NCBI GenBank assembly: GCA_015055945.1
Contig: SVHH01000007.1
Location: 1-60,398, forward strand
Origin: Clostridiales bacterium
GTDB taxonomy: Bacteria; Bacillota; Clostridia; Christensenellales; Borkfalkiaceae
Direction: 5' to 3'
DNA length: 60,398 nt
The notes under the pieces are model-generated. The model saw nothing but the letters and a program-made list of their open reading frames with translations. It was not told where the DNA came from and ran no database searches. The position numbers and the translations under genes are program-made. This document shows, in pieces, positions 3,480 through 60,379 of this stretch; the first letter of the stretch is position 1, and each line of letters opens with the position of its first letter.

Positions 3480-4220
3480 CTATTCCCAAGTTTCAAAACA
3501 GTACTTTCTATAACGCCTTGGAAAGAAACTATCTTGCTGAGCCTGGTGTGGTCGCTCTTTAATATTTACTGCACGGAAATATTTTCTCCACAAATTTTGC
3601 AAATATTGTTCTTGTTGTGATGCGTTAAACGATGGTAAAAGTTCGGTATAATCCGTCTTAATGGTAACGCCGTTAGAAATGGCAATAACGTTTCTTTTAA
3701 CGTCGTGTATTATAAAAGGGGTATGACCTAAGCGCTTTAGAAAGTGTGGGGCAAGGAGCGCCGTTATATCGTTATCGGGGGAATACCTTGCATACAGCAC
3801 CCCGTTTTCCGATTCAGTAAAGCGCAAAAAACCGCTTACTATATGGCGTTCGTGTAGAACTTTTTGAACAAGAAAAGAAAAGTCTGAAACAGCCTTTTCA
3901 CTTAAATTTTCCGAAACGTCCGCACGCTCTTTCAAGGTTAAATATCCATAATTAAATGCAATAGACAGCGCGCGCGTGTCGCAAGACATCAAACATATTT
4001 TAATATGGTAAATAATATCGTCGCCACCGTAAGAGTAAAGCGCATTTTTAACCCTTTCGCAATTTTCTCTATTCGTAGTAATTCTTATATTGACCGCATC
4101 AAGCCTAGGTTGAAATGACAGCGCATTTTCTACGGCATCGGGCACAATTTTTTCAGTAAAACTCATAAATAGAGCGGATAAAATTCCGTCGATATTATTG
4201 TCGATAGTAAAAATCTTCAT
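3480..4220 (-). CDS. DUF4130 putative DNA metabolism protein (TIGR03915 type)
   Basis: A 246-residue protein of the family always found beside, or fused near, a radical-SAM DNA repair protein. The C-terminal YRKYCFETWE end is characteristic of the family, and the C-terminal half corresponds to DUF4130, sometimes fused to uracil-DNA glycosylase elsewhere. No catalytic motif can be assigned confidently. Its start overlaps the upstream radical-SAM stop by 4 bp (ATGA), so translation is coupled. A role in handling a damaged or modified base with its partner is inferred from family association, not from visible active-site residues. Confidence 0.8.
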   Translation of the reverse strand: MKIFTIDNNIDGILSALFMSFTEKIVPDAVENALSFQPRLDAVNIRITTNRENCERVKNALYSYGGDDIIYHIKICLMSCDTRALSIAFNYGYLTLKERADVSENLSEKAVSDFSFLVQKVLHERHIVSGFLRFTESENGVLYARYSPDNDITALLAPHFLKRLGHTPFIIHDVKRNVIAISNGVTIKTDYTELLPSFNASQQEQYLQNLWRKYFRAVNIKERPHQAQQDSFFPRRYRKYCFETWE

Positions 4221-43899: not shown

Positions 43900-44325
43900 A
43901 TGTCCGGTAAAAATTACTCGCATCAATTAGATGCTAAAAACCGAATGAGAATACCGGCTAAACTGCGTGAGCAACTTGGTGAAGGCTATGCTATCACCGT
44001 GGGCACGGGCGGTTGTCTTTACGTATATACCGCAGAGCAGTTGAAAGAAGTAAAAGCAAAACTTTCTAATATCAACGCTTATAGGGAAAAACAGTTAAAG
44101 GCAGCGCGTTTTATTCTTTATAATACGTGGGAAGCCGAAGAAGACAAGCAGGGCAGAATTCTTCTCCCTGAAAACTTAAGAAAGTTCGCTAAGATTGAAA
44201 AGAACGTAAAAGTTTTCCAAGGTCCTAACTGCATTGAAATTTGGAGTGAAGAAGTTTGGAACGAATACTTTAACGACGTTAACTTTGAAGAACTTGCTGA
44301 TGCGCTTGAAGCATTAAATTCCTAA
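43900..44325 (+). CDS. mraZ: Division/cell wall cluster transcriptional regulator MraZ
   Basis: A 141-residue AbrB-like double-domain protein that represses its own division cluster. The start SGKNYSHQLDAKNRMRIPAK and the second-domain counterpart EEDKQGRILLPENLR are typical. It leads the mraZ-rsmH-ftsL-PBP series under a strong promoter. Confidence 0.95.
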   Translation: MSGKNYSHQLDAKNRMRIPAKLREQLGEGYAITVGTGGCLYVYTAEQLKEVKAKLSNINAYREKQLKAARFILYNTWEAEEDKQGRILLPENLRKFAKIEKNVKVFQGPNCIEIWSEEVWNEYFNDVNFEELADALEALNS

Positions 44326-44329
44326 TAAG

Positions 44330-45268
44330 ATGGCTGAACTTAAACACGTATCCGTTATGTTTGATGAATGCATGGACGGACTTAACATTAAAAACGGCGG
44401 GCTGTACTTTGACGGAACGCTGGGCGGTGGTGGACATTCTCACGGAATATTGAGTAGATGCGCCCCCGACGGTAAACTGGTTGCAACCGATCTTGATGAT
44501 TATGCTATCGCAAGGGCAACCGAAAGATTAAGCGAATTTAACGGGAGATTTACTCTCGTAAAAGATAATTTCAAAAACTTTGCTCAAGTTAAAGAAAATT
44601 TAGGGATAGATGCCTTTGACGGAATACTTCTCGACCTTGGCGTTTCAAGTTTCCAACTTGACGATAGAGCCCGCGGATTTTCTTATATGGCAACCGACGT
44701 AAAACTCGATATGCGAATGGGTAAAGATAACCCCTTAACCGCTGAAACTGTTGTTAACGAGTACAGTGAAAGGGAATTAAAAAGAATTTTAACGGTGTAC
44801 GGCGAAGAAAGATTTGCTTCTTTAATTGCAAAAAACATCGTTGAAAATAGAAAGGTTAAAAGAATTGAAACGACTGGACAACTTATCGAGATTATCGAAA
44901 AGAGTATTCCTAAGAAGTTTCAAAAAGATGGGCATCCCGCAAAAAGAACCTTTCAAGCAATAAGAATAGAAGTAAACGGCGAGCTGGACGGACTTTACGA
45001 AACGGTGCTTACGATGGCAAGATCACTCAAGAGTGGTGGCAGAATTGCAATTTTAACGTTCCATTCATTAGAAGATAGGATAGTTAAAAACGCGTTCAAA
45101 GAATTAGAGTGTGATTGTATTTGCGATAAGAGTTTGCCAGTATGTGTGTGCGGTAAGAAAAAGGAAGTTAATATCATAACTAAACATCCAATAACCGCAA
45201 GCGAAAAAGAATTAGAAATTAACGGAAGGGCAAGGAGTGCAAAACTCCGTATTGCCGAAAAAGTATAA
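44330..45268 (+). CDS. rsmH: 16S rRNA (cytosine1402-N4) methyltransferase
   Basis: RsmH (MraW) methylates C1402 of 16S rRNA. The 312-residue protein starts with HVSVMFDECMDGL, contains the SAM loop DGTLGGGGHSHGIL, DLGVSSFQLD and the C-terminal ITAS and RSAKLR. It begins 4 bp after mraZ without a clear Shine-Dalgarno, implying coupled translation. Confidence 0.95.
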   Translation: MAELKHVSVMFDECMDGLNIKNGGLYFDGTLGGGGHSHGILSRCAPDGKLVATDLDDYAIARATERLSEFNGRFTLVKDNFKNFAQVKENLGIDAFDGILLDLGVSSFQLDDRARGFSYMATDVKLDMRMGKDNPLTAETVVNEYSERELKRILTVYGEERFASLIAKNIVENRKVKRIETTGQLIEIIEKSIPKKFQKDGHPAKRTFQAIRIEVNGELDGLYETVLTMARSLKSGGRIAILTFHSLEDRIVKNAFKELECDCICDKSLPVCVCGKKKEVNIITKHPITASEKELEINGRARSAKLRIAEKV

Positions 45269-45288: not shown

Positions 45289-45318
45289 ATGGTACAGCAA
45301 GACGTTCAAGTGATGTGA
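45289..45318 (+). other. Nine-codon leader ORF in front of ftsL
   Basis: The best Shine-Dalgarno of this junction, AGGAG (45277-45281), serves ATG 45289, but that frame stops after nine codons (TGA 45316). The stop overlaps the GTG proposed for ftsL (GTGA). It is either a coupling leader peptide or the remnant of the true ftsL start after a one-base loss: in the ftsL frame the same DNA encodes GTARRSSDVNTTYE. Confidence 0.45.
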
Positions 45319-45878
45319 ACACAACTTATGAATCTGCAAACGGTGGCGTTGCAGTATTAGAAAGACCTTGCGAAGTGGTTGAAAACGCTACGGCAACTTA
45401 TTCTGATCAAGAATCTAGAATCAAGAGTAATCTTGATAAGCTTCTTAATTACGATAAGTATGCTCCGACAGTTTCAAGCACGGCGGAAGAAGCAGTGTCT
45501 AAAGTAGTTGCTCAAGCATCTACTCTTGCAGATGAAGACATTAGACCTACTTCAACTACTATGCAATTTGGCGAAGACATTGATCAAATTACTAGAGATA
45601 TGTCACGCAGTGCAGCAGTTGCACAAGATTCTTATCAAATCAACAAAAAGGGTAAGGTAGCCGTTATGCTTTACGCCTTAGTAGTAACCGTTATTTTAGC
45701 GCTAATAATTTTAAATACAGGTGTTTTGGCATCATTGTCTAGCACCGCAGAACAAAAGGCTGCAGAATTTTCTGCGATTAAATCAGAAGCAAGTGCTCTT
45801 GCCGCTGAAAACGAATATTTGCAAAGCAACGAACGTATCGTTGAAGAAGCAATGAAATTAGGTATGGTTCAAAAGTAA
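45315..45878 (+). CDS. ftsL: FtsL-like division protein
   Basis: A 187-residue bitopic protein: a long acidic cytoplasmic region (about 112 residues), one membrane helix (VAVMLYALVVTVILALIIL), then a coiled-coil heptad segment (AEQKAAEFSAIKSEASALAAENEYL). Position after rsmH and topology fit FtsL, which recruits division-septum synthases with DivIC/FtsB. GTG 45315 is the only start in this frame near a ribosome-binding site, but the site is better spaced for a short out-of-frame ORF. The amino end is therefore uncertain and may be frameshifted. Confidence 0.7.
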   Translation: MNTTYESANGGVAVLERPCEVVENATATYSDQESRIKSNLDKLLNYDKYAPTVSSTAEEAVSKVVAQASTLADEDIRPTSTTMQFGEDIDQITRDMSRSAAVAQDSYQINKKGKVAVMLYALVVTVILALIILNTGVLASLSSTAEQKAAEFSAIKSEASALAAENEYLQSNERIVEEAMKLGMVQK

Positions 45879-45933: not shown

Positions 45934-47514
45934 ATTAAAAACGATTTATCTATCACGATTTTACGAAAGAGGTTATTCGCAATTATACTTGCGGTAACCT
46001 TTTTATTTTTGTCCGTTTTAGGCAGAGTATTTTACGTTCAAGTAATTTGGGGTGAAGAACTTCAAAAAAAGGCAATAGACCAGTGGACAAGGGAAATACC
46101 TATAATTGCAGCCCGTGGAAAAATTGTAGATGAAAACGGTGTGGTTCTTGCTGATAACGATGATACTTATACGGTGTTCGTTAGAAAGAAAGCAGTGGGT
46201 GATTTTGACAAATTGTCAAGCGTATTATCTAATATTTTAGGTCTAAGTTATGAATACGTCTATAATAGATTGACTAAAACCACGTCTAGTGAAGTAACAA
46301 TAAAAAAACAAGTACCAAAAGAGCAAATTTCTCAGTTGTTAACTTACGAATTTAATGGTCTTTATGTGTCGCGTGATAACTCTAGAACTTATCCGTATAA
46401 CGAGTTTTTGACTTCAGTTTTGGGGTTTACTTCAACTGATGGTAAAGGTCAGTCTGGGTTAGAACTCTATTACGATAAATATCTATCGGGTATGAACGGA
46501 GAAATACTTTATGAAACTGATATTGTCGGTGTTGAAGTGGACGGTGGCAAAGCAAGTTATATCCCCGCAACCGATGGGCTTAATATAAAACTTACGATTG
46601 ATTATGAAGTTCAGCAATTATGTGAGCACGCTATGGAAGAAGCGATGGAAATTCATAAAGCAAAGTCAGCACAAATGCTTGTTATCGATCCAAGTACTGG
46701 CGCGATTAAAGGGATAAGTATAAAGCCGTCGTATGACCTAAATGAAATTCCAAGAGATGATTTGGCTGCGCTTAACGCGCTGTCTAGAAACAATTTGTTT
46801 TGCGACGTATACGAGCCTGGTTCAACTTTTAAGGTGCTTACTGCTGCGGCTAATATCGAAGAATATTTACAAGGAAATAAAAATGCTTATAGTCCGCAAC
46901 ATATTTATTCTTCTTCAAGGTATCGTTATATTGACGGTCAAAAAGTAAAGTGTTGGAATAACCACGCTAACGGTAGGCACTCAGCACTTACGCTGCAAGG
47001 TGGGTTAAATAACAGTTGTAACCCGATATTTGTTGACATTGCTTGTGCGTTAGGCAAAGAAACTATGTATAAATACATTGACTTGTTCAATTATGGAAAG
47101 GTTACTGGGGTAGATTTTAACGGCGAGTCGCAAGGAATGGTGCTGCCGATAACTGCTGTTCAAAACGTAGACTTGGCAAGAATTGCTTTTGGGCAAACTA
47201 TTGCCGTAACTGGATTACAACTTGCTGCTGCAACTAGTGCTGCAATTAACGGCGGTATTTATTACACGCCTTATCTAGTTAGCGAAATTTATTCAAATGA
47301 CGGTGCGTTTAGTGAAAAAAACGAGCCTGAACAAAAGAATAGGGTTATAAGTGAAAAGGCATCAAAAATGCTTAGCGAAATGCTTGAAAAGGTTGTTTCA
47401 GAAGGCTCTGGAAAACAAGCCTATATTGAAGGGTATAGGGTTGCGGGTAAAACTGGTGATATTCTGACAACTTGTGTAAATCTCGTCAAAAATCTTATTA
47501 AAATACATACTTGA
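45934..47514 (+). CDS. Class B penicillin-binding protein (FtsI/SpoVD), 3'-truncated by element insertion
   Basis: A transpeptidase that cross-links peptidoglycan at the septum (FtsI) or spore cortex (SpoVD). From an inferred ATT start at 45934 it has 526 codons: a basic start and membrane helix (RKRLFAIILAVTFLFLSVLG), the RGKIVDENG dimerisation region, active serine S297 in EPGSTFKVL, SCN at 361-363 and KTG at 506-508. Immediately after KTG the usual threonine is replaced by D and the frame ends after 17 unrelated residues, because a mobile element begins there. The last strand of the active site and any PASTA domain are lost. No ATG/GTG/TTG exists in frame before TTG 46009, which would cut into the membrane helix. 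Family certain; FtsI versus SpoVD undecided. Confidence 0.8.
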   Translation: MKNDLSITILRKRLFAIILAVTFLFLSVLGRVFYVQVIWGEELQKKAIDQWTREIPIIAARGKIVDENGVVLADNDDTYTVFVRKKAVGDFDKLSSVLSNILGLSYEYVYNRLTKTTSSEVTIKKQVPKEQISQLLTYEFNGLYVSRDNSRTYPYNEFLTSVLGFTSTDGKGQSGLELYYDKYLSGMNGEILYETDIVGVEVDGGKASYIPATDGLNIKLTIDYEVQQLCEHAMEEAMEIHKAKSAQMLVIDPSTGAIKGISIKPSYDLNEIPRDDLAALNALSRNNLFCDVYEPGSTFKVLTAAANIEEYLQGNKNAYSPQHIYSSSRYRYIDGQKVKCWNNHANGRHSALTLQGGLNNSCNPIFVDIACALGKETMYKYIDLFNYGKVTGVDFNGESQGMVLPITAVQNVDLARIAFGQTIAVTGLQLAAATSAAINGGIYYTPYLVSEIYSNDGAFSEKNEPEQKNRVISEKASKMLSEMLEKVVSEGSGKQAYIEGYRVAGKTGDILTTCVNLVKNLIKIHT

Positions 47515-47538
47515 CAAAAAAATAGTATATTTTTAACG

Positions 47539-47600
47539 AAAAAAAGCCTAAAATGTCAACAATCTAATTACGGTTTATAGTTGACAATAGGGCTTTTTTT
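47539..47600 (+). terminator. Terminator at the element's left edge
   Basis: AAAAAAAGCCTA (47539-47550) and TGTCAA (47554) pair with TTGACA (47581) and TAGGGCTTTTTTT (47588-47600) across a 21-nt loop. The T-tract follows directly, so host transcription entering from the PBP gene should stop here. The right arm doubles as the -35 of the element's first promoter. Confidence 0.7.
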
Positions 47601-47610
47601 ATGCTATAAT
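47581..47610 (+). promoter_or_regulatory. Promoter of XRE/HipA-like genes
   Basis: Consensus TTGACA (47581-47586), 18-bp spacer, extended TGC-TATAAT (-10 at 47605-47610). A TAGGAGA ribosome-binding site precedes the ATG at 47640. The inverted repeat TGTCAA/TTGACA over the -35 could also bind the XRE protein. Confidence 0.85.
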
Positions 47611-47639: not shown

Positions 47640-48539
47640 ATGCCGATTTTCTATTATGGATTACGTAAACTTATGGACGAGAATAATATTACGCAAAAAG
47701 CACTTGCTGAAGCTTGTGACATTGCGCCAAATTCAATTTCTCGTATGATGCAAGGCGAATATGTGTCAATAGAAACAATTGATAAAATTTGTAATTTCTT
47801 CAATTGCGATTATGGCGATATTATTACGCGATTTAAAAAAGATGATCCTATCGGGTATGTAAGCGATGCTCAATACGAAGAAGGTATGGCGCAGGTTAGA
47901 ACAGCGTTAGTTTATTATATGGAAAAAACAGGCGAGGCTGTTTCAAGAGTAAGTCAGAAAACAACACTATCGGTCAATACGATAAAATCTTTTCTTTTAG
48001 GAAACCCGATTCATTCGACGTCATTTTTGAAGTTAACTAAGTTAGGTGACATTTTTAATAATAGACTGGCAGAAATAATGAATGGGGCAATGAAACCTGA
48101 TGATTATATTGCACCAAAGCCAATCAAGAAAGTTTCTTTTAAGGTGTATTATAAATTATTAAAATTAGTGCCAAAGGGGAAACTAGCAAGAAGGGAAGAT
48201 ATTGAAGCATACGTTGCAAAAAAGTTGAATGTAGAATATGTTTCTTTTGCATTGTTTAAAGGGGATTCTCAATGGGAGTTCAGTACGGATATTATGTTTA
48301 CGATTCCATATTGGAGAGAAATCTCAACTCGTGGCGTTTTGCAAGAGACAAGCAAATGTTCAAGGGAAACACAAGAACAGGCATTAATTGAAGAGGGGCA
48401 TACTTTAGTCAAATATGGGAAAGATTCCAAACGAGTAGAAGACTTCCAAAATAAGCTCTTCGATTTTAATTCAATTGACGATAAGACTTTCTTTGAAATT
48501 TATGACGATGAAGAATCAAAGAGATTTTACGAATTTTAA
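47640..48539 (+). CDS. XRE-family regulator
   Basis: A 299-residue protein. The N-terminal helix-turn-helix is NITQKALAEACDIAPNSISR (residues about 16-35), and a second similar segment, SQKTTLSVNTIKSFL, follows near residue 105-120. The C-terminal 150 residues match nothing I recognise. It probably represses its own promoter and, as first gene before the HipA-like kinase, may act as the antitoxin-like partner. It is much larger than HipB (about 90 residues), so an immunity/regulator role for the element is the alternative. Confidence 0.75.
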   Translation: MPIFYYGLRKLMDENNITQKALAEACDIAPNSISRMMQGEYVSIETIDKICNFFNCDYGDIITRFKKDDPIGYVSDAQYEEGMAQVRTALVYYMEKTGEAVSRVSQKTTLSVNTIKSFLLGNPIHSTSFLKLTKLGDIFNNRLAEIMNGAMKPDDYIAPKPIKKVSFKVYYKLLKLVPKGKLARREDIEAYVAKKLNVEYVSFALFKGDSQWEFSTDIMFTIPYWREISTRGVLQETSKCSRETQEQALIEEGHTLVKYGKDSKRVEDFQNKLFDFNSIDDKTFFEIYDDEESKRFYEF

Positions 48540-48586
48540 TAGTTGATGTATAAAAAACACGAAAATGAAAAATGAGGGATACTTCA

Positions 48587-49708
48587 ATGTTCGATACGAA
48601 ATGGACTTATATGATTATGCATAAAAATGAACTTGTCGCATCCATTCGCAAAGATGGGTATTGTGAGGTTTATAGTTCATCTTTTATGCCGTATAATTTA
48701 TATCTTGAAACTAAAACGCAGGACTTGGATGAGAGGGTTAATAATTTAACGAATTTTTATTATTGGTGTGCGTCAAGGGTATTGTCTTTGGATAGAAAAC
48801 ATGCAAAAACAATATTAAATTATTTGAATAAAAAACAAGCTGTTACGGATAAGGATAGGGCGGAAATTGCCCTTTCGTATCACTGTTTAACGTTGACGGA
48901 TGTTTTTTGGGTAAAGGAAAAAGAAGAAACGCTTTTCTTTGAAGATATTAGTTTATATAGAAATCCTTTAAGTAGGGCTTTTTTTGACGTTTGCTTAAGA
49001 GGTGTGTATCCGACATCTCGGACTCAAGAGTTTTTAACACAGGGTAAAGTTGCTGGAGATATTTCTACGAGTGGTGTTGCGCCTAAAGCATGGCTTCGTA
49101 AAGATGGATATATATACTTGTATAAGGACGGCAACGCCGATGAAGTAAATGCTGAATTATTAGCGAGTAAGATAGCTAATTGTTTTCAATGTAATCATAT
49201 AGAATATTTTGAAGATTACTATCTTGGAGAAAAAGTTTGCGTAAGCAAACTAATTACTTCCGAAGAGACTAGCATAGTTCCAATAGAATATATAGAAGTC
49301 TATGCGATAAATAACGAAATCGACAAATATTCACTTGTGCTGGAAAAAGATTCGTATAATTACTATATGATGAACATTCTTGATTACTTAATTGGGAATA
49401 CCGATAGGCATTGGGGTAATTGGGGCTTTTTAGTTGATAATAAAACGAATGAATTACTGAATTTGCACCCGTTAATGGATTTTAATAAAGCATTTACGAC
49501 ATATGATGATTTAGCGGGGGCGAAGTGCTTGACGACTAGAGAAGCGAGGACGCAAATGCAAGCCGCAATAGAGGCTGTTAAACAAATTGGGCTTAATCAA
49601 ATATCTGAAATTCAAGGGAACTGGTTTTACGATGAAAGTATAAAAGAGATGTTTTTTAAGAGGTTGGATGTTTTAAGAAAAACTAATGATGAAAGGTCAA
49701 AAGCTTAA
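48587..49708 (+). CDS. HipA-like kinase-domain protein
   Basis: A 373-residue protein with the HipA C-terminal kinase pattern: SGVAPKAWLRKDG with a lysine strand IYLYKDG, the catalytic loop GNTDRHWGNWG (N271, D273, H275, N278), and HPLMDFNKAF with the metal-binding D298. HipA-type kinases phosphorylate targets such as glutamyl-tRNA synthetase and cause growth arrest; others are non-toxic. ATG 48587 is chosen because GAGGGA lies just ahead; an upstream ATG (48572) lacks one. It follows the XRE gene by 47 bp. Confidence 0.75.
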   Translation: MFDTKWTYMIMHKNELVASIRKDGYCEVYSSSFMPYNLYLETKTQDLDERVNNLTNFYYWCASRVLSLDRKHAKTILNYLNKKQAVTDKDRAEIALSYHCLTLTDVFWVKEKEETLFFEDISLYRNPLSRAFFDVCLRGVYPTSRTQEFLTQGKVAGDISTSGVAPKAWLRKDGYIYLYKDGNADEVNAELLASKIANCFQCNHIEYFEDYYLGEKVCVSKLITSEETSIVPIEYIEVYAINNEIDKYSLVLEKDSYNYYMMNILDYLIGNTDRHWGNWGFLVDNKTNELLNLHPLMDFNKAFTTYDDLAGAKCLTTREARTQMQAAIEAVKQIGLNQISEIQGNWFYDESIKEMFFKRLDVLRKTNDERSKA

Positions 49709-49769
49709 TGTGAAACGTGTTTATGGTGAAAATTCAAACAAAAGAGAAACAAACTTAATATATAGTGAT

Positions 49770-49805
49770 AACCCTGTAATATATGATATTTTACAGGGTT
49801 ATTTT
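49770..49805 (+). terminator. Terminator after HipA-like gene
   Basis: AACCCTGTAA and TTACAGGGTT form a 10-bp stem with an 11-nt loop, followed by ATTTTAT. Confidence 0.8.
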
Positions 49806-49892
49806 ATACGGAAATTTATTAACGCGATTTGTTTTAAGTATAAAAAAGTGTAAAAAACGACAAAATATATCTATTAAAAAATGTAATTTTTA

Positions 49893-49921: not shown

Positions 49922-49942
49922 ATTACCATCTGGAGGATGATT

Positions 49943-51238
49943 ATGGAACGAAAAATTTATCAAGAATTATTAAACTGGAAAAACAACGAAGCTCGTAAAC
50001 CATTAATCTTGCAAGGTGCAAGACAAGTAGGCAAAACGTATATAGTCAACTATTTTGCAGGTAAAGAGTATCAGAATTATATTTACTGTAATTTTGAGAA
50101 AGAAAAGGGATTAGAAGATTTCTTTACAGACTTAAACCCTGAAAATATAATTCGTAAATTAGCGAATTATAAACGCAAGGAAATTTTGCCGAAAGATACT
50201 TTGATTATTTTCGATGAAATTCAGTCTTGCCCGCAAGCAATTACTTCTTTAAAGTATTTCAACGAAGAGGCGAATGAATATCATATAGTTGCGCTTGGCT
50301 CATTATTAGGTGTATCGGTAAATCGTGGCAATTTTTCATTTCCCGTTGGGAAAGTACAATTTTTAACAATGTATCCGATGGATTTTGAAGAATACTTGCT
50401 CGCAAAGGGTGAAGAGTATTTGGTAGGGCAGATTAAAGATTGTTACGCAAGCGATGCGCCATTAGATTCGCTTTTTCACGAGCGTGCGCTTGATTATTAT
50501 AAAGAGTATTTATTCGTTGGTGGTATGCCAGAGGTGGTTGAAAATTACATCAAGAATAAAAACCCTGAAATGGTAAGAATAGCGCAACAAACTATTTTAG
50601 AATCGTATCAAAATGATATGGGTAAATATAATAAACAATCTGAAATTCCAAAGACTAAGATTGTCTATAAAAATATTAGTACTCAACTTGCTAAAGAGAA
50701 TAAAAAGTTTCAATATAAGTACGTGAAATCAGGCGGTCGTGCTTCTGAATTTGAAGGCGCAATAGAGTGGTTGTGTTTAGCGGGGGTTGCGAGCCAGTTG
50801 TATCGCATAGAACAAATTGCTTTACCATTAAACGCTTATAGGTCATTATCAGACTTTAAGTTTTATATGAATGACGTCGGGCTTTGCGGTGCAAGTCAAG
50901 ATATACATTTTGATGATATTCAGCGCGATAATCCCTTGTTATATAATTTCAAGGGTGGGTTAACTGAAAATTATGTATTTAATCAATTTACGAGTAATGG
51001 TTTTGATTTATATTATTGGAATAGCGGAAATCAAGCAGAAATAGATTTCATTGTAAGAGTTAATGAAGATGTTATTCCTGTAGAGGTAAAATCTTCGGAC
51101 AACACTCGTTCAAGAAGTTTATCTGTTTATACAAGCAAATATGCTCCAGCATATTCAATCCGATTATCAATGAAGAATTTCGGTTTTGAAAATGGTATAA
51201 AATCAATTCCTCTTTACGCAGCGTTTTGTATTAAATAA
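49943..51238 (+). CDS. AAA ATPase with DUF4143
   Basis: A 431-residue protein of the AAA_14/DUF4143 type: Walker A GARQVGKT (residues 25-32), Walker B LIIFDEIQSCP, SFPVGKVQFL, and a C-terminal nuclease-like DUF4143 part with AEIDFIV and PVEVKSSDN, a PD-(D/E)xK-like arrangement. The cellular role of the family is unknown; it is common as cargo in gut Clostridia and Bacteroides. ATG 49943 is chosen over ATG 49937, which overlaps the TGGAGG site. It has its own promoter and is flanked by terminators, so it is a stand-alone cargo gene. Confidence 0.88.
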   Translation: MERKIYQELLNWKNNEARKPLILQGARQVGKTYIVNYFAGKEYQNYIYCNFEKEKGLEDFFTDLNPENIIRKLANYKRKEILPKDTLIIFDEIQSCPQAITSLKYFNEEANEYHIVALGSLLGVSVNRGNFSFPVGKVQFLTMYPMDFEEYLLAKGEEYLVGQIKDCYASDAPLDSLFHERALDYYKEYLFVGGMPEVVENYIKNKNPEMVRIAQQTILESYQNDMGKYNKQSEIPKTKIVYKNISTQLAKENKKFQYKYVKSGGRASEFEGAIEWLCLAGVASQLYRIEQIALPLNAYRSLSDFKFYMNDVGLCGASQDIHFDDIQRDNPLLYNFKGGLTENYVFNQFTSNGFDLYYWNSGNQAEIDFIVRVNEDVIPVEVKSSDNTRSRSLSVYTSKYAPAYSIRLSMKNFGFENGIKSIPLYAAFCIK

Positions 51239-51322: not shown

Positions 51323-52363
51323 ATGAGTTGTTTGATGAAATTTAAGTGGGTAAAACTACCACGCAAAATTATACCGCAAAAGAAAGGAATTATGGGGTAT
51401 TGGATGAAACTCGCCGCAAGGGTTGCTTTTAGAAAAGGGCAATCCTTTTATTGTGGACACACCAATGAGGTAAATCCTGGTGAATGGGTTGGTGGAATTA
51501 TGGGATTAAAGAGTATTCTTGGTCTTAAGTCGAAAGAAAAGGCGATGCACGTTATGGATGAACTTGCTAGATTTGGATACATAACTTATAACATTGATGT
51601 TCAAACAAAAAAATTAACGTATAAGATAAATGACTGGGTTATCGAATGTTCAGGGAAAGCATGTTTAGGCGATAATACTTATGCAACTAACGATTACGGT
51701 TTTCTTTGCGTACCAAGAAATATTACTGAACGTCTTGTAAGTAAAGGGTATGAATTTGGCGAATCTGATGCGTGGTTAGACCTTTGGATTCATACAATTT
51801 ATGAAGATAGAAAAAATTTTTTAACTTTTTTTGCTCCAATGGTAAGGTTTCAAGAATTGAATGTCTTCTTATCATTGGAGACACTTAGTAAACGCTGGGG
51901 CTGGGAAAAGACAAAAACGTGGAGATTTTTACAAAAAAATAAGGAGGTGTTTGAATTATATCGTCTTCCTGGAACATATGGTTGTTTGCTATTCAATAAG
52001 TTGTATCCGACCAGTAAAGATATTGTATTACCAAACCAGTTAGAAATAATTGAAGTGATTTTGAAAACACGTCAGACATTAGAAGATATGAACGTAGATT
52101 GCACTCACGGGAATCTAGGGTATCTTATCGAAACAATGGGAGAGGATTTTACAAACCTAATTATCGGTGAGAAAGAAAAAAATAGCGTTGCACTTTTTCA
52201 TTATATAATACGCGCGTATATTTCTCCGTGTTGGAAAGACGTTAAAATTAGTTGTGACTGCAAAGAATATTATATATTACTCAAAAGAGAAGTTATTGAA
52301 CTAAATAAAATACGTGGTCCTTGTGTGTCTCTGGATTTACACGATAAGGAGAATCAGCAATGA
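51323..52363 (+). CDS. Winged-helix protein, possible replication/transfer initiator
   Basis: A 346-residue protein without a clear family. A segment near residues 183-200, SLETLSKRWGWEKTKTWRFL, resembles the winged helix of phage replisome-organiser and element replication proteins. Cysteines are scattered (CLGDN, CSGKAC, CDCKEYY). It overlaps the next gene by 4 bp, and together they could control replication or transfer of the element. Start supported by AAGGAGGT. Its function is not assigned. Confidence 0.55.
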   Translation: MSCLMKFKWVKLPRKIIPQKKGIMGYWMKLAARVAFRKGQSFYCGHTNEVNPGEWVGGIMGLKSILGLKSKEKAMHVMDELARFGYITYNIDVQTKKLTYKINDWVIECSGKACLGDNTYATNDYGFLCVPRNITERLVSKGYEFGESDAWLDLWIHTIYEDRKNFLTFFAPMVRFQELNVFLSLETLSKRWGWEKTKTWRFLQKNKEVFELYRLPGTYGCLLFNKLYPTSKDIVLPNQLEIIEVILKTRQTLEDMNVDCTHGNLGYLIETMGEDFTNLIIGEKEKNSVALFHYIIRAYISPCWKDVKISCDCKEYYILLKREVIELNKIRGPCVSLDLHDKENQQ

Positions 52364-56693: not shown

Positions 56694-57593
56694 GTGGCAG
56701 AACAAACAAAACAACAAGTCGGCGACGGTAAAGACAATTACGGGCAGGCCGCAAAAAATATATCAAAAGCCGCCAAAGGTATTGGCAAAGCAGCGGCGAA
56801 CACCGCAAAAGAGGGTGCAAAAGCAACGGCAAACGTCGCGGCCCAGACAGTAAAAGCTGGTGTAAAAACAGGTAAAGCTGTTTCTCAAATTGCAGCAGGC
56901 ACAGCAGCAGGTGGACCGTGGGGAGCGATTATTTCAGCAGCGTGGTCAATGCGCCATACGTTGTTTAAGATTTTTGTTTCTATAACGCTAGTTATTGTTT
57001 TTATAGTCGTTGCAATTCTTTCTATCCCTAGTATTATTTTTGATACAATTTTCGGAAATAAGTTCGAAGGATTAGGAGAGCAAACGTCAATAGTACAAGC
57101 TTATGAAGAGTTGTCAAACACGGTGGACGATATTATAGATATTGCTTTTGAGCTTACGTTAGGTAGAGTTGACGATATTATTTCTATTGGTAACTATGAT
57201 TACTCAATGTCTATGAAACATCTAACGTATACAAGACCAACAAGCAATGATTATGATACCTATTATATTATTGCAGCGTATTCTGTTTCAATGAATCAGC
57301 AAGGGACAAGTCAAGAAAATTTCGCCAATAAACTTAACAGCGTAAGCACTTTGATGTTCCCTATAAAATATCAAATTTGCAAAGCGAACCGAATAATAGA
57401 TACATTACTTGGTCCAATAGATGAAATCTTTGAGTACGTTGTTTGTACGATATTACCATTTGATCCAAGCTCAATATTAACAGCATTCGATTTGGACTTG
57501 AATGCAAAGTATGGTGAGTTTGATATTACAAATGGTGAGGCTATTGAGTTTATGGCAACGGCTTTAGAAAAAACGCTAAATGAAGGAGGATGA
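56694..57593 (+). CDS. Transfer-module membrane protein with Ala/Lys-rich head
   Basis: A 299-residue protein starting at GTG 56694, decided by AAGGAGGT; the open frame upstream is the leader terminator. Residues 1-75 are an Ala/Lys/Gly helix with repeated KAAKG-type blocks, followed by one membrane helix (IFVSITLVIVFIVVAILSI) and a domain of about 180 residues outside. The head and helix resemble CD1108-type proteins of Clostridioides elements, which often carry a peptidoglycan hydrolase; no such domain is visible here. Confidence 0.55.
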   Translation: MAEQTKQQVGDGKDNYGQAAKNISKAAKGIGKAAANTAKEGAKATANVAAQTVKAGVKTGKAVSQIAAGTAAGGPWGAIISAAWSMRHTLFKIFVSITLVIVFIVVAILSIPSIIFDTIFGNKFEGLGEQTSIVQAYEELSNTVDDIIDIAFELTLGRVDDIISIGNYDYSMSMKHLTYTRPTSNDYDTYYIIAAYSVSMNQQGTSQENFANKLNSVSTLMFPIKYQICKANRIIDTLLGPIDEIFEYVVCTILPFDPSSILTAFDLDLNAKYGEFDITNGEAIEFMATALEKTLNEGG

Positions 57594-57594
57594 T

Positions 57595-57927
57595 ATGGAT
57601 GAAAGAGAACTAGAAAACGTATATAGTATTCCAGTTAATTATACCGATTCAGGTAAGTTGCTTGGTGGATTGCTTTCCTGGAGAAATGCTATTGAAACAA
57701 TTATATTAGTTGTGGCTTTAGGATTTGTAGAATTAAAGTTAATACCAATGCCTGATATGGTAAAGGTAGTGGTAATGACAATAACGTTAGTACCGCTTGC
57801 AATATTTAGTGCGATGGGTGTTGACGGTGATTCTTTACTACAGTTTTTAGGTCGGATTCTAAAGCATCTATTTAAGAGAAAAAAATTACATTTCAAAAGG
57901 GTGGACGTAAAAAATGAAGAAAAATAA
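57595..57927 (+). CDS. PrgI family conjugal transfer protein
   Basis: A 110-residue protein with two membrane helices (AIETIILVVALGFVEL and VKVVVMTITLVPLAIF) after the family start YSIPVNYTDSGKLLGG. PrgI proteins always precede VirB4 in Gram-positive conjugation modules and probably act like VirB3. ATG 57595 is chosen by AGGAGG at 57584-57589; it begins 1 bp after the previous stop and overlaps virB4 by 14 bp. Confidence 0.9.
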   Translation: MDERELENVYSIPVNYTDSGKLLGGLLSWRNAIETIILVVALGFVELKLIPMPDMVKVVVMTITLVPLAIFSAMGVDGDSLLQFLGRILKHLFKRKKLHFKRVDVKNEEK

Positions 57928-60379
57928 ACTTGAGTTTGCACAGGATATTATTCCCGTGAAAGATATAAAGGCAGGCATTATTGAAACCACAGATGGAAGA
58001 TATATTAAGATTCTTGAAATCGAGCCTATAAACTTTATGTTGCGGTCAGATGATGAGCAGTTTTCAATTATTTCTTCATTTGCAAGTTGGTTAAAAATAT
58101 GTCCAGTAAGAATGCAGTTTAAAAGCATAACACGGCGAGCTGACACTGAAAAACACTTGGAGGTTTTAAGGAAAGAACTTAGAACTGAATCGGATAATAA
58201 ATGTTGGACGCTTGGCGAAAGTTATATCAATCTGATAAAAGAGGTGGGAAGTAAGGAAGCGCTAACAAGGCGCTTTTTTCTTATATTCCAATATGAATCG
58301 CCACACAAAAACGATGATTTTCAACAAGTATATTCAACGCTTCAAACGGTGGAACAAAATGCGAGAGCTTATTTTTCTCAATGTGGTAATAACATACTAC
58401 AATATAAAAATCCAAACGAAGAGATAATGGAAATTTTATATACGTATTTTAATCGCAATTCATGTACGACGGAGCCTTTTGTGAAAAGGGTAGAACGTGT
58501 TGTGATGGATGCGATGAGAGTTGAGGGTAAGACAATCGGAGTTGATGAGGTTCCGAATGTGCCTATTAAAAATTTCATTGCACCAAGAGGGATTGATTTT
58601 ACCAATCATGCCTATACGATTATGGATGGTAGATATTACACGGTTCTATATATCAAAGGTAATGGCTACCCAAGTAAAGTAAGAGCAGGGTGGTTATCTA
58701 CATTAATCAATGCTGGTGATGGTATAAACGTTGATGTATTCTTGAAAAAAGAAAACAAAAGCAAAGTAATAGATAAGGTTGCGCAAAAAATTCGGCTTAA
58801 TAGAACAAAACTTAAAGATATGCAAGATACGAGCACCGATTATGAAGAGTTGACGAATTCAATTCAAGCAGGCTATTACATTAAACAAGGAATTGCTAAC
58901 TATAACGAAGACCTATTTTATATGTCGGTATTTATTACGGTATCTGCGAACACAAAGAAGGAACTTTTGTGGCGTAAGCAACAAGTAATAGATAAGTTAA
59001 AAGCGATAGATATTAGTGTTTCAGAAGGAAAGTTTCAACAAGAAGAAGCATTTAAGTCGGTGATGCCATTTTTAAGAGTTTCGCCAGTTCTTGAAAAGAA
59101 AGCAAAACGAAACGTTTTAACGAGTGGTGCTGCATCGTCATACATATTTACTAGCTTTGAATTGTCTGATGACACGGGTGTTTTACTTGGCGTAAACCAA
59201 CACAATAATTCACTTTGTATCGTTGACCTTTTTAATACAAAGAAAAACAAAAACGCAAATCTAAATCTTATTGGAACAAGCGGTGCAGGTAAGACTTTTA
59301 CCATGCAACTGCTTGCATTGCGCATGCGTATGCGCGGTATTCAATCGTTTATTCTTGCACCTATAAAAGGGCACGAGTTTAAGCGAGCTTGTAAAAAAAT
59401 AAACGGCAGTTTTATTAGAATTGCACCAGGCTCTCCGCACTGTATTAACGTGATGGAGATTCGGCAAACGATAAGTCCTGAAATGGATTTGATAGATGGA
59501 ACGGATTATAGGGGAAATGATTCGCTGCTGGCAAGAAAAATTCAGCAACTTATGATTTTCTTTACGTTATTAATTCCAGATATCACAAACGAAGAGGAAC
59601 AGCTTCTTGATGAAGCGCTGATAAAAACATACAAAGATTTTGGCATCACTCATAAAAACAAAAGTCTGTATGTGAATGGTAGCAGCAAAGAGTTTAAGAG
59701 AATGCCAGTCCTTGGAGATCTGCATAAGAATTTGAAAGATAATCCAAGAACGGAACGTCTGGCAATAATTTTGAGCAGGTTTGTTACCGGTTCGGCGCAG
59801 TCCTTTAATCGTCAAACCAACGTAGATTTATCAAACAAATACATCGTAATAGATTTATCCGAATTAAAAGGAAAACTTCTACCAGTGGGCATGATGATAG
59901 CGCTTGATTACGTTTGGGATAATATTAAGTTAGACCGAATTAAAAAGAAAGCGATTTTTATTGATGAAATATGGCAACTTGTCGGTGCATCGTCTAATAG
60001 CCTTGCAGCCGATTTTTGTTTGAACATATTCAAAACTATTAGAGGCTATGGTGGAGCAGCGATAGCGGCAACACAGGATTTATCCGATTTTTTTGGGTTG
60101 GAAGATGGAAAGTACGGTAGAGCTATAATCAATAACAGTCAAAATAAAATCATTTTGAATTTGGAACATGATGAGGCTCAATACGTAAGAGACGTGTTAA
60201 AACTTACGAGAACCGAAATACACGCTATAACAAGTTTTAATAGAGGTGAAGCGTTGGTTTGTTCTAGTGCAAATAAGATACCGATTGTTATAAAAGCGTC
60301 GGAAGAGGAACACGAATCCATTACGACGGATAGGGCAGAGCTTGAAGCAATTCTGCAAAAACATAAAGCAAAAGAATAA
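57914..60379 (+). CDS. VirB4-type conjugation ATPase
   Basis: The energy source of the type IV secretion system. The 821-residue protein has an N-terminal VirB4 domain and a C-terminal ATPase with Walker A GTSGAGKT (residues 454-461), Walker B IFIDE (D684, E685) and a following glutamine-rich TQDLSD motif typical of TraE/VirB4. It is intact. It overlaps prgI by 14 bp, so the subunits are co-translated. Another ribosome-binding site (GAAGGAGGTG) follows its stop, so the module continues beyond the window. Confidence 0.95.
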   Translation: MKKNKLEFAQDIIPVKDIKAGIIETTDGRYIKILEIEPINFMLRSDDEQFSIISSFASWLKICPVRMQFKSITRRADTEKHLEVLRKELRTESDNKCWTLGESYINLIKEVGSKEALTRRFFLIFQYESPHKNDDFQQVYSTLQTVEQNARAYFSQCGNNILQYKNPNEEIMEILYTYFNRNSCTTEPFVKRVERVVMDAMRVEGKTIGVDEVPNVPIKNFIAPRGIDFTNHAYTIMDGRYYTVLYIKGNGYPSKVRAGWLSTLINAGDGINVDVFLKKENKSKVIDKVAQKIRLNRTKLKDMQDTSTDYEELTNSIQAGYYIKQGIANYNEDLFYMSVFITVSANTKKELLWRKQQVIDKLKAIDISVSEGKFQQEEAFKSVMPFLRVSPVLEKKAKRNVLTSGAASSYIFTSFELSDDTGVLLGVNQHNNSLCIVDLFNTKKNKNANLNLIGTSGAGKTFTMQLLALRMRMRGIQSFILAPIKGHEFKRACKKINGSFIRIAPGSPHCINVMEIRQTISPEMDLIDGTDYRGNDSLLARKIQQLMIFFTLLIPDITNEEEQLLDEALIKTYKDFGITHKNKSLYVNGSSKEFKRMPVLGDLHKNLKDNPRTERLAIILSRFVTGSAQSFNRQTNVDLSNKYIVIDLSELKGKLLPVGMMIALDYVWDNIKLDRIKKKAIFIDEIWQLVGASSNSLAADFCLNIFKTIRGYGGAAIAATQDLSDFFGLEDGKYGRAIINNSQNKIILNLEHDEAQYVRDVLKLTRTEIHAITSFNRGEALVCSSANKIPIVIKASEEEHESITTDRAELEAILQKHKAKE

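Follow-up and report, generated by a model that had tools for sequence, protein, structure and literature searches.

The window analyzed here, a DNA stretch of 60,398 bp, is the entire contig C10 of a genome (G000) of 1.45 Mb, which was assembled in 18 contigs and is 96.4% complete. Three ORFs between 43900 and 45878, which we take from their sequence and order to be mraZ, rsmH and ftsL, lead to an ORF (46009-47514) with similarity to class B PBPs up to the residues GKTG and with a stop after a D and 17 further residues (Table 1). The 5' part of this gene was counted from TTG at 46009, a putative start; the open frame is of 533 aa. The SxxK, SCN and KTG motifs are all retained in the 5' part and PBP homology is lost at 47458. 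Both the ORF and the homology therefore agree with the first-pass annotation, which had described a frame that is normal through these three motifs and then switches at 47458. The residue which it had called S297 is the SxxK serine, although the number becomes S272 when counted from the TTG at 46009, another start having been used. Its placing of a conjugative element in the KTG codons of a PBP gene likewise stands, given the junction and the conjugation genes that were found. The match of the window PBP to PF00905 stops at position 240 of 299, and when the PBP is matched to the C. difficile SpoVD chain (548 residues), about 70 residues of that chain extend past the match. The lost part may hold the last catalytic strand, as the first-pass annotation had it.

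Table 1. Features of the window at and around the left end of the element
Feature	Position	Strand	Remarks
mraZ (presumed)	43900-44325	+	ORF; dcw gene upstream of split PBP gene
rsmH (presumed)	44330-45268	+	ORF; dcw gene upstream of split PBP gene
ftsL (presumed)	45315-45878	+	ORF; dcw gene upstream of split PBP gene
spoVD-like class B PBP gene, 5' part	46009..47457	+	frame continues inside element to 47514
GG of KTG glycine codon, left-junction crossover bases	47455..47456	+	
Left-end dyad arm CTTGTGTA	47471..47478	+	partner TACACAAG at right end, L004
Promoter-like TTGACA-18-TATAAT	47581..47610	+	consensus match; reads toward element gene 1
HTH (Cro/C1-type) protein	47640..48539	+	
Weakly HipA-like protein	48572..49708	+	below Pfam cut-off; weak PDC-M03A matches
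AAA_14 / DUF4143 protein	49937..51238	+	PDC-S01 candidate defence protein
Gene without Pfam or NCBIfam match	51323..52363	+	homologue near left end of G028 element
PrgI-like conjugation protein	57580..57927	+	26.5 bits, cut-off 27
VirB4-like conjugation ATPase	57914..60379	+	contig ends directly after

The missing 3' part of the PBP gene was found on contig C1 (locus L004), where PF00905 positions 236-299 were matched and the fragment reads in frame from GKTGTAQKYENG to IPSYS, followed by a stop. Directly before it lie three serine recombinase genes, encoding a 132 aa resolvase-domain protein, R2 (499 aa) and R1 (545 aa); the 3' fragment and the integrase that the first-pass annotation had suggested looking for at the other end of the element are both present. 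After the fragment come genes which, apart from spoVE/ftsW, carry names that we presume to be correct: murE, mraY, murD, spoVE/ftsW, murA, ftsQ, ftsA and ftsZ. Mobile genes had been noted where mraY and murD were expected, and element genes do lie there, but the next gene of the cluster is murE, on L004. When the host flanks were joined at the crossover, a single 553-codon frame with VAGKTGTAQKYENG was obtained for G000, and the same operation gave a 639-codon frame in genome G439, in which both PBP halves lie on a single 185-kb contig. The right ends of G028 and G000 share 98.5% DNA identity over 394 bp, while their host 3' fragments share 73%. One of the four promoter-like matches at the right end is directed outward toward murE (shuffle mean 3.0), and no strong outward promoter toward murE was detected there in this search of promoter matches against shuffles.

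Seven left and seven right ends, from eight host loci, are without exception consistent with a crossover at GG, bases 1 and 2 of the glycine codon of KTG. The junctions were printed by a script at places specified beforehand, and inspection of the printed sequences gave the bases shared between left and right ends: exactly GG for both G437 and G440, GGT in G000, AGG in G439 and AAAACAGG in G028 and G438. G437 and G440 therefore narrow the shared bases to exactly GG. A dyad around GG was present in all six elements tested, offset 0 being the best of three tried, with 13, 18, 14, 19, 14 and 13 of 24 positions paired; 34, 1, 21, 0, 6 and 20 of 2000 simple shuffles, respectively, reached these values. 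The dyad arms differ by subgroup (TACACAAG/CTTGTGTA, AATAAATGGG/CCCATTTATT and ATTATAGTGCTTA/TAAGCACTATAAT). Since G000/G437 and G439/G440 are near-copies, the six dyads are not independent and the eight loci represent fewer lineages. We take this GG-centred dyad at the element ends to resemble the attP of a large serine integrase.

The family was scanned for with R2 alone as query against genome contigs. Five loci were obtained in four other MAGs (goat, sheep, rabbit), with 45-95% identity to R2. Four of the loci extend beyond the recombinase, and in each of these a PBP 3' fragment is reached; the fifth locus (L129) stops 21 bases past the recombinase. A PBP search of these four MAGs revealed the gene split at KTG in every one of them, as five truncated 5' parts and four 3' parts; at E <= 0.001, PBP matches occurred nowhere else in these MAGs. 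The G438 bin contains two rsmH-ftsL-PBP loci, both split, and is mixed because it holds two dcw loci. In G437, from goat, the PBP 3' fragment is separated from murE by several host-like genes (L128, 6065-10737). The family has two full recombinases, with a short third one in G000 and G437. As in an ICE, the site-specific recombinase belongs to the element and lies beside the attachment site; R1 or R2 would be the acting enzyme.

Thirty-six genomes of the same genus served as a rough control. Over at least 280 residues, the identity of their best R2 relatives does not exceed 33%, while over stretches of about 65-100 residues it reaches up to 48%; the frame runs through the site in 24, is split in one (G028) and 11 had no match. 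R2 matched 62 plasmid records and 105 phage records, all below 60% identity, the best among the matches listed being at most 33% and 29%, respectively. Neither a confirmed R2 relative nor an exact match to the left-end pattern was found in viral contigs.

Occupancy of the site was surveyed in 44 genomes of the genus by means of the PBP 3' part, which matched in 32 and was without match in 12. An intact gene, which the first-pass annotation had suggested looking for in relatives, was seen as an uninterrupted frame through the site in 29 of the 32; 27 of these frames were re-read, and G015 and G029 were judged from frame length alone. The 3' fragment is joined to other DNA in three genomes, namely G000, G028 (both ends seen) and G063 (right end only). 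No close R2 relative was found in the assembly of G028, which shares its right end with G000. The occupied site of G063 (contig C9; L084, 1-3760) is preceded by other genes, with no recombinase within 3.7 kb before the fragment. In G017 (contig C139; L083), an intact PBP gene at 214-1416 is followed about 2.1 kb later, at about 3532-3744, by a second, slightly different PBP 3' fragment with the same core start, as though a further 3' end had come in with another element.

Contig ends close to the site in G005 and G035, and those in G319, G125, G375 and G380, were rejected as insertions; the terminus in G380 is presumably adapter-like sequence. From 396 genomes, 25 with split, weak or absent matches were chosen by hand, and 16 of the 25 matched; contig breaks in such a sample give no rate. 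Contigs broken exactly at the core were observed in G004 (C4/C6; L080, L081), G400 (C16; L109) and G368 (C10; L115), with overlaps of 141 bp in G004 and 77 bp in G368. These breaks are suggestive only, of mixed occupied and empty sites or of strain differences.

The G439 element is complete on one contig and measures 37,484 bp between its two GG cores. It encodes a MobL relaxase, VirD4, a pilin-like protein, VirB4 and an NrS-1 polymerase-like protein, and so has the relaxase, coupling protein and VirB4 of the conjugation machinery of an ICE. At its left end is a cassette matching the SspA, SspB, SspC, BrxP/SspD/DndC, PbeA and PbeC defence models. This cassette, of the Ssp/Pbe phosphorothioation type, occupies L142 3283-14816; the left 9 kb of the G440 element (L148) gave no alignment to it, although the right parts are 98% identical, suggesting that the left ends hold exchangeable cargo. 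At the left end in G000 the promoter-like matches number four, the shuffle mean being 1.0. A stretch that includes the HipA-like gene (48557-49834) is absent from the otherwise 86-92% identical G437 element (L152), the alignments ending at one side of the stretch and resuming at the other. No relaxase or coupling protein was found in the parts of the G000 element that are present, its middle being missing from the assembly.

Comparison of recombinases with host genes indicates that the family is moving between hosts and keeping its site in very different PBPs. The recombinases of G439 and G440 are 99-100% identical and the host PBPs 56%; for G000 and G437 the values are 95-98% and 54%. R2 identity exceeded PBP identity in all 15 pairs, the recombinases and PBPs of G438 being paired arbitrarily. 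The right part of the G439 and G440 elements shares about 12 kb at 98.2% DNA identity, which extends slightly past the junction, against 70.9% for the 5' PBP region. The same site is kept by R2 proteins merely 44-45% identical, in PBPs 34-36% identical.

By its matches the split PBP gene is SpoVD-like. The best solved relative of its product is C. difficile SpoVD (290 bits; next 179), and TIGR02214 (SpoVD) is the best NCBIfam model, with a score of 433 against a cut-off of 688, which the intact gene of a relative (523) also did not reach. The product therefore belongs to the class B PBPs, is encoded in the dcw cluster and matches SpoVD best, below the curated cut-off. PBP_dimer and SEDS were each matched at one place in the genome. 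A second class B PBP, that is another ftsI or spoVD as the first-pass annotation had considered, was not found in the G000 assembly; at 96.4% completeness, another one could be missing from it. No second SEDS protein was found in the genome either. PF00905 was matched at three places: the 5' part in the window, the 3' part on C1 and a class A-type PBP on C5, whose best model is PBP1A, under its cut-off. With the spoVD-like gene split, this class A-type PBP is the sole other PF00905 transpeptidase-domain protein found. The neighbouring SEDS protein scored 374 bits with SpoVE, below the cut-off of 448.8, and 357 bits with FtsW, above the cut-off of 337.5; since the higher score fails its cut-off and the lower one passes, the models do not decide its role. 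Between the FtsI and SpoVD of the first-pass annotation, the best matches speak for SpoVD, but the SEDS scores do not allow a clean separation from an FtsI-type role.

Matches to sigE, sigF, sigG, sigK, spoIIGA, spoVAC and spoIVA were identified in G000, sigK being one open frame. SigE and SpoIVA scored over their cut-offs and SigK over its subfamily cut-off and slightly under the equivalog one, while SigF, SigG, SpoIIGA and SpoVAC were under the curated cut-offs. SpoIVA is present in G000 and in all 13 other genomes tested. C. difficile can grow without its dcw-encoded SpoVD and SpoVE, the vegetative septum being the work of a class A PBP (PMC10693644). If the same arrangement applied here, it would account for the insertion being tolerated; the tolerated insertions and the C. 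difficile precedent together lead us to infer that the PBP gene is not needed for growth. The catalytic activity of C. difficile SpoVD is needed for the cortex and is partly dispensable for asymmetric division (PMC12713402). Because the truncated PBP retains the N-terminal and dimerisation parts, early sporulation might, speculatively, proceed ahead of excision.

Upstream of R1, the best sigma-A matches at six loci were 12, 11, 10, 11, 10 and 10 of 12, scores reached by 0, 2, 73, 4, 69 and 47 of 200 shuffles, so that the match is clear in three of the six. A sigma-E-like promoter gave no signal upstream of the recombinases at any of the six loci, 200, 200, 162, 200, 150 and 126 of 200 shuffles reaching the best matches. 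With sigma-A-like promoters and no sigma-E signal, the recombinase promoters do not tie excision to sporulation. Only a small directionality factor is, however, under sporulation control in C. difficile skin (PMC5025042), and a sigma-A-like promoter would therefore be compatible with sporulation timing; excision timed by sporulation, as for skin/sigK, is plausible. Inspection by eye showed operator-like motifs in repeats before R1, together with a small ORF that in G000 has no Pfam match. A divergent HTH-type gene near R1 is listed in five loci and is expected in G440 from 98% DNA identity. The operon looks like that of an element under its own repressor.

Several known systems are related to this arrangement. 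One of them is gin in gerE of Bacillus cereus ATCC10987 (PMC5595907), also a non-phage element in a sporulation gene, with three serine recombinase genes and a short shared junction sequence as here; it differs in its gerE target and in that sporulation-specific excision was demonstrated for gin, and the text of that paper contains no mention of spoVD. Skin in sigK of C. difficile and B. subtilis (PMC5025042) likewise uses a large serine recombinase, by which a sporulation gene is rebuilt, and in C. difficile that recombinase is expressed from a sigma-A promoter, comparable to the sigma-A-like one found here. Excision of SPbeta from spsM by a large serine recombinase also rebuilds a sporulation gene (PMC4191935). 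Skin and SPbeta are prophages or prophage-like, whereas the present elements carry conjugation genes and have a peptidoglycan transpeptidase as target. The element yin in yabG of Clostridium botulinum (PMC10747680) again lies in a sporulation gene, with integrated and excised subpopulations within one culture, but is a prophage in another gene and was reported from one strain, while the spoVD family occurs in several hosts.

Streptococcal ICEs with serine integrase triplets (PMC4701971) resemble the family in their tandem integrases at one end beside the disrupted target and in their very short direct repeats; their targets are mutT, traG and hsdM rather than a spoVD-like gene. The SpoVD/SpoVE of C. 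difficile (PMC10693644, PMC12713402) are similarly a bPBP/SEDS pair of the dcw cluster with no other FtsW/FtsI pair, but C. difficile also has RodA-PBP2 and PBP3, where in G000 a single SEDS and a single class B PBP were found. An ICE within spoVD is known from ICEBs1 in B. subtilis (PMC3715440), as a secondary site with eight mismatches and undetectable excision, in a host without the normal attB; for the element family described here, spoVD is the regular site. Apart from this secondary site (PMC3715440), no spoVD or PBP gene was found as an integration site among the literature matches listed. In an integrase survey (PMC10083194), spoVD is absent and 'penicillin' occurs twice.

The explanation that probably holds is an ICE-like family with serine recombinases which integrates at the GG of the KTG codon in a spoVD-like PBP gene. 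The sequence shows that integration splits the gene and that joining of the flanks at the crossover restores its frame. Because the element sits inside the codons of a catalytic motif, the gene should stay split unless the element leaves. Carriers would grow because the PBP serves sporulation and not growth, as in C. difficile, and the element would have to leave, at least in the mother cell of the spore, for a normal cortex. Like an intervening element, it splits a gene that is repaired in frame on joining; a use in sporulation rests on the SpoVD similarity. An assembly or binning artefact might be feared with MAG data, G438 being visibly mixed, but is most improbable: these ends were obtained again in separate assemblies, and in G439 a single contig carries the two halves, for which reasons the assembly chimera was rejected. 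It is also unlikely that the PBP is an essential FtsI, with the DNA coming from a minority of cells or with a truncated protein that works with its SxxK, SCN and KTG. The gene is the sole class B PBP found, its place is in the dcw cluster, the neighbouring SEDS protein is over the FtsW cut-off, and the three core breaks (G004, G400, G368) could mean mixed occupied and empty sites; however, G000, G028, G437, G439 and G440 were assembled with both junctions, PF00905 positions 240-299 after KTG are absent, and the best matches are to SpoVD.

Within the ICE-like family, what excision is for can be read in different ways. The SpoVD-like target in genomes with sporulation genes and the precise, in-frame repair recall the precedents skin, SPbeta, gin and yin (PMC5025042, PMC4191935, PMC5595907, PMC10747680), and would fit a programmed switch like skin, in which the element is excised in the mother cell during sporulation, its recombinase or directionality factor being controlled by a sporulation sigma factor. 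The sigma-A-like promoter is compatible with this, given the directionality factor of C. difficile skin, but sigma-E-like matches upstream of the recombinases do not exceed the shuffles at any of the six loci, the divergent HTH gene suggests control by the element itself, and the 29 of 32 genus genomes without insert imply that the element is no fixed part of the programme; such a switch is possible but rather doubtful. Close to an even chance is given to a plain ICE, for which a dispensable conserved gene would be a safe site, sporulation would be delayed or blocked, and spoVD would be rebuilt as a by-product of occasional excision for transfer. The conjugation genes, the defence cargo, the recent transfer and the recombinase operon adjoining a divergent HTH gene are as expected for it, and ICEBs1 delays sporulation to the advantage of its carriers, by the other route of devI (PMC8032392). 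Against it stand the retention of SpoIVA by the hosts and the losses that non-sporulating carriers would be expected to suffer where spores matter. A further reading is put forward tentatively, the balance being somewhat against it: a family of elements spread over distant gut hosts would have a dedicated, reversible home at the catalytic-motif codon of spoVD, the cells would grow with their only class B PBP disabled, excision in the mother cell would rebuild the cortex enzyme and the spore would inherit the element.

With the present family, a peptidoglycan synthase joins the genes that are split, and could be rebuilt, by mobile elements; here the elements carry conjugation genes and have split the gene repeatedly at one codon. 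Its recombinases, with their matched attachment sites, are candidate site-specific integrases. In several genomes the insertions amount to natural knock-outs of the single class B PBP found. They are relevant to a proposal that was tested in C. difficile, namely that FtsW/FtsI are not used for division in many clostridia.
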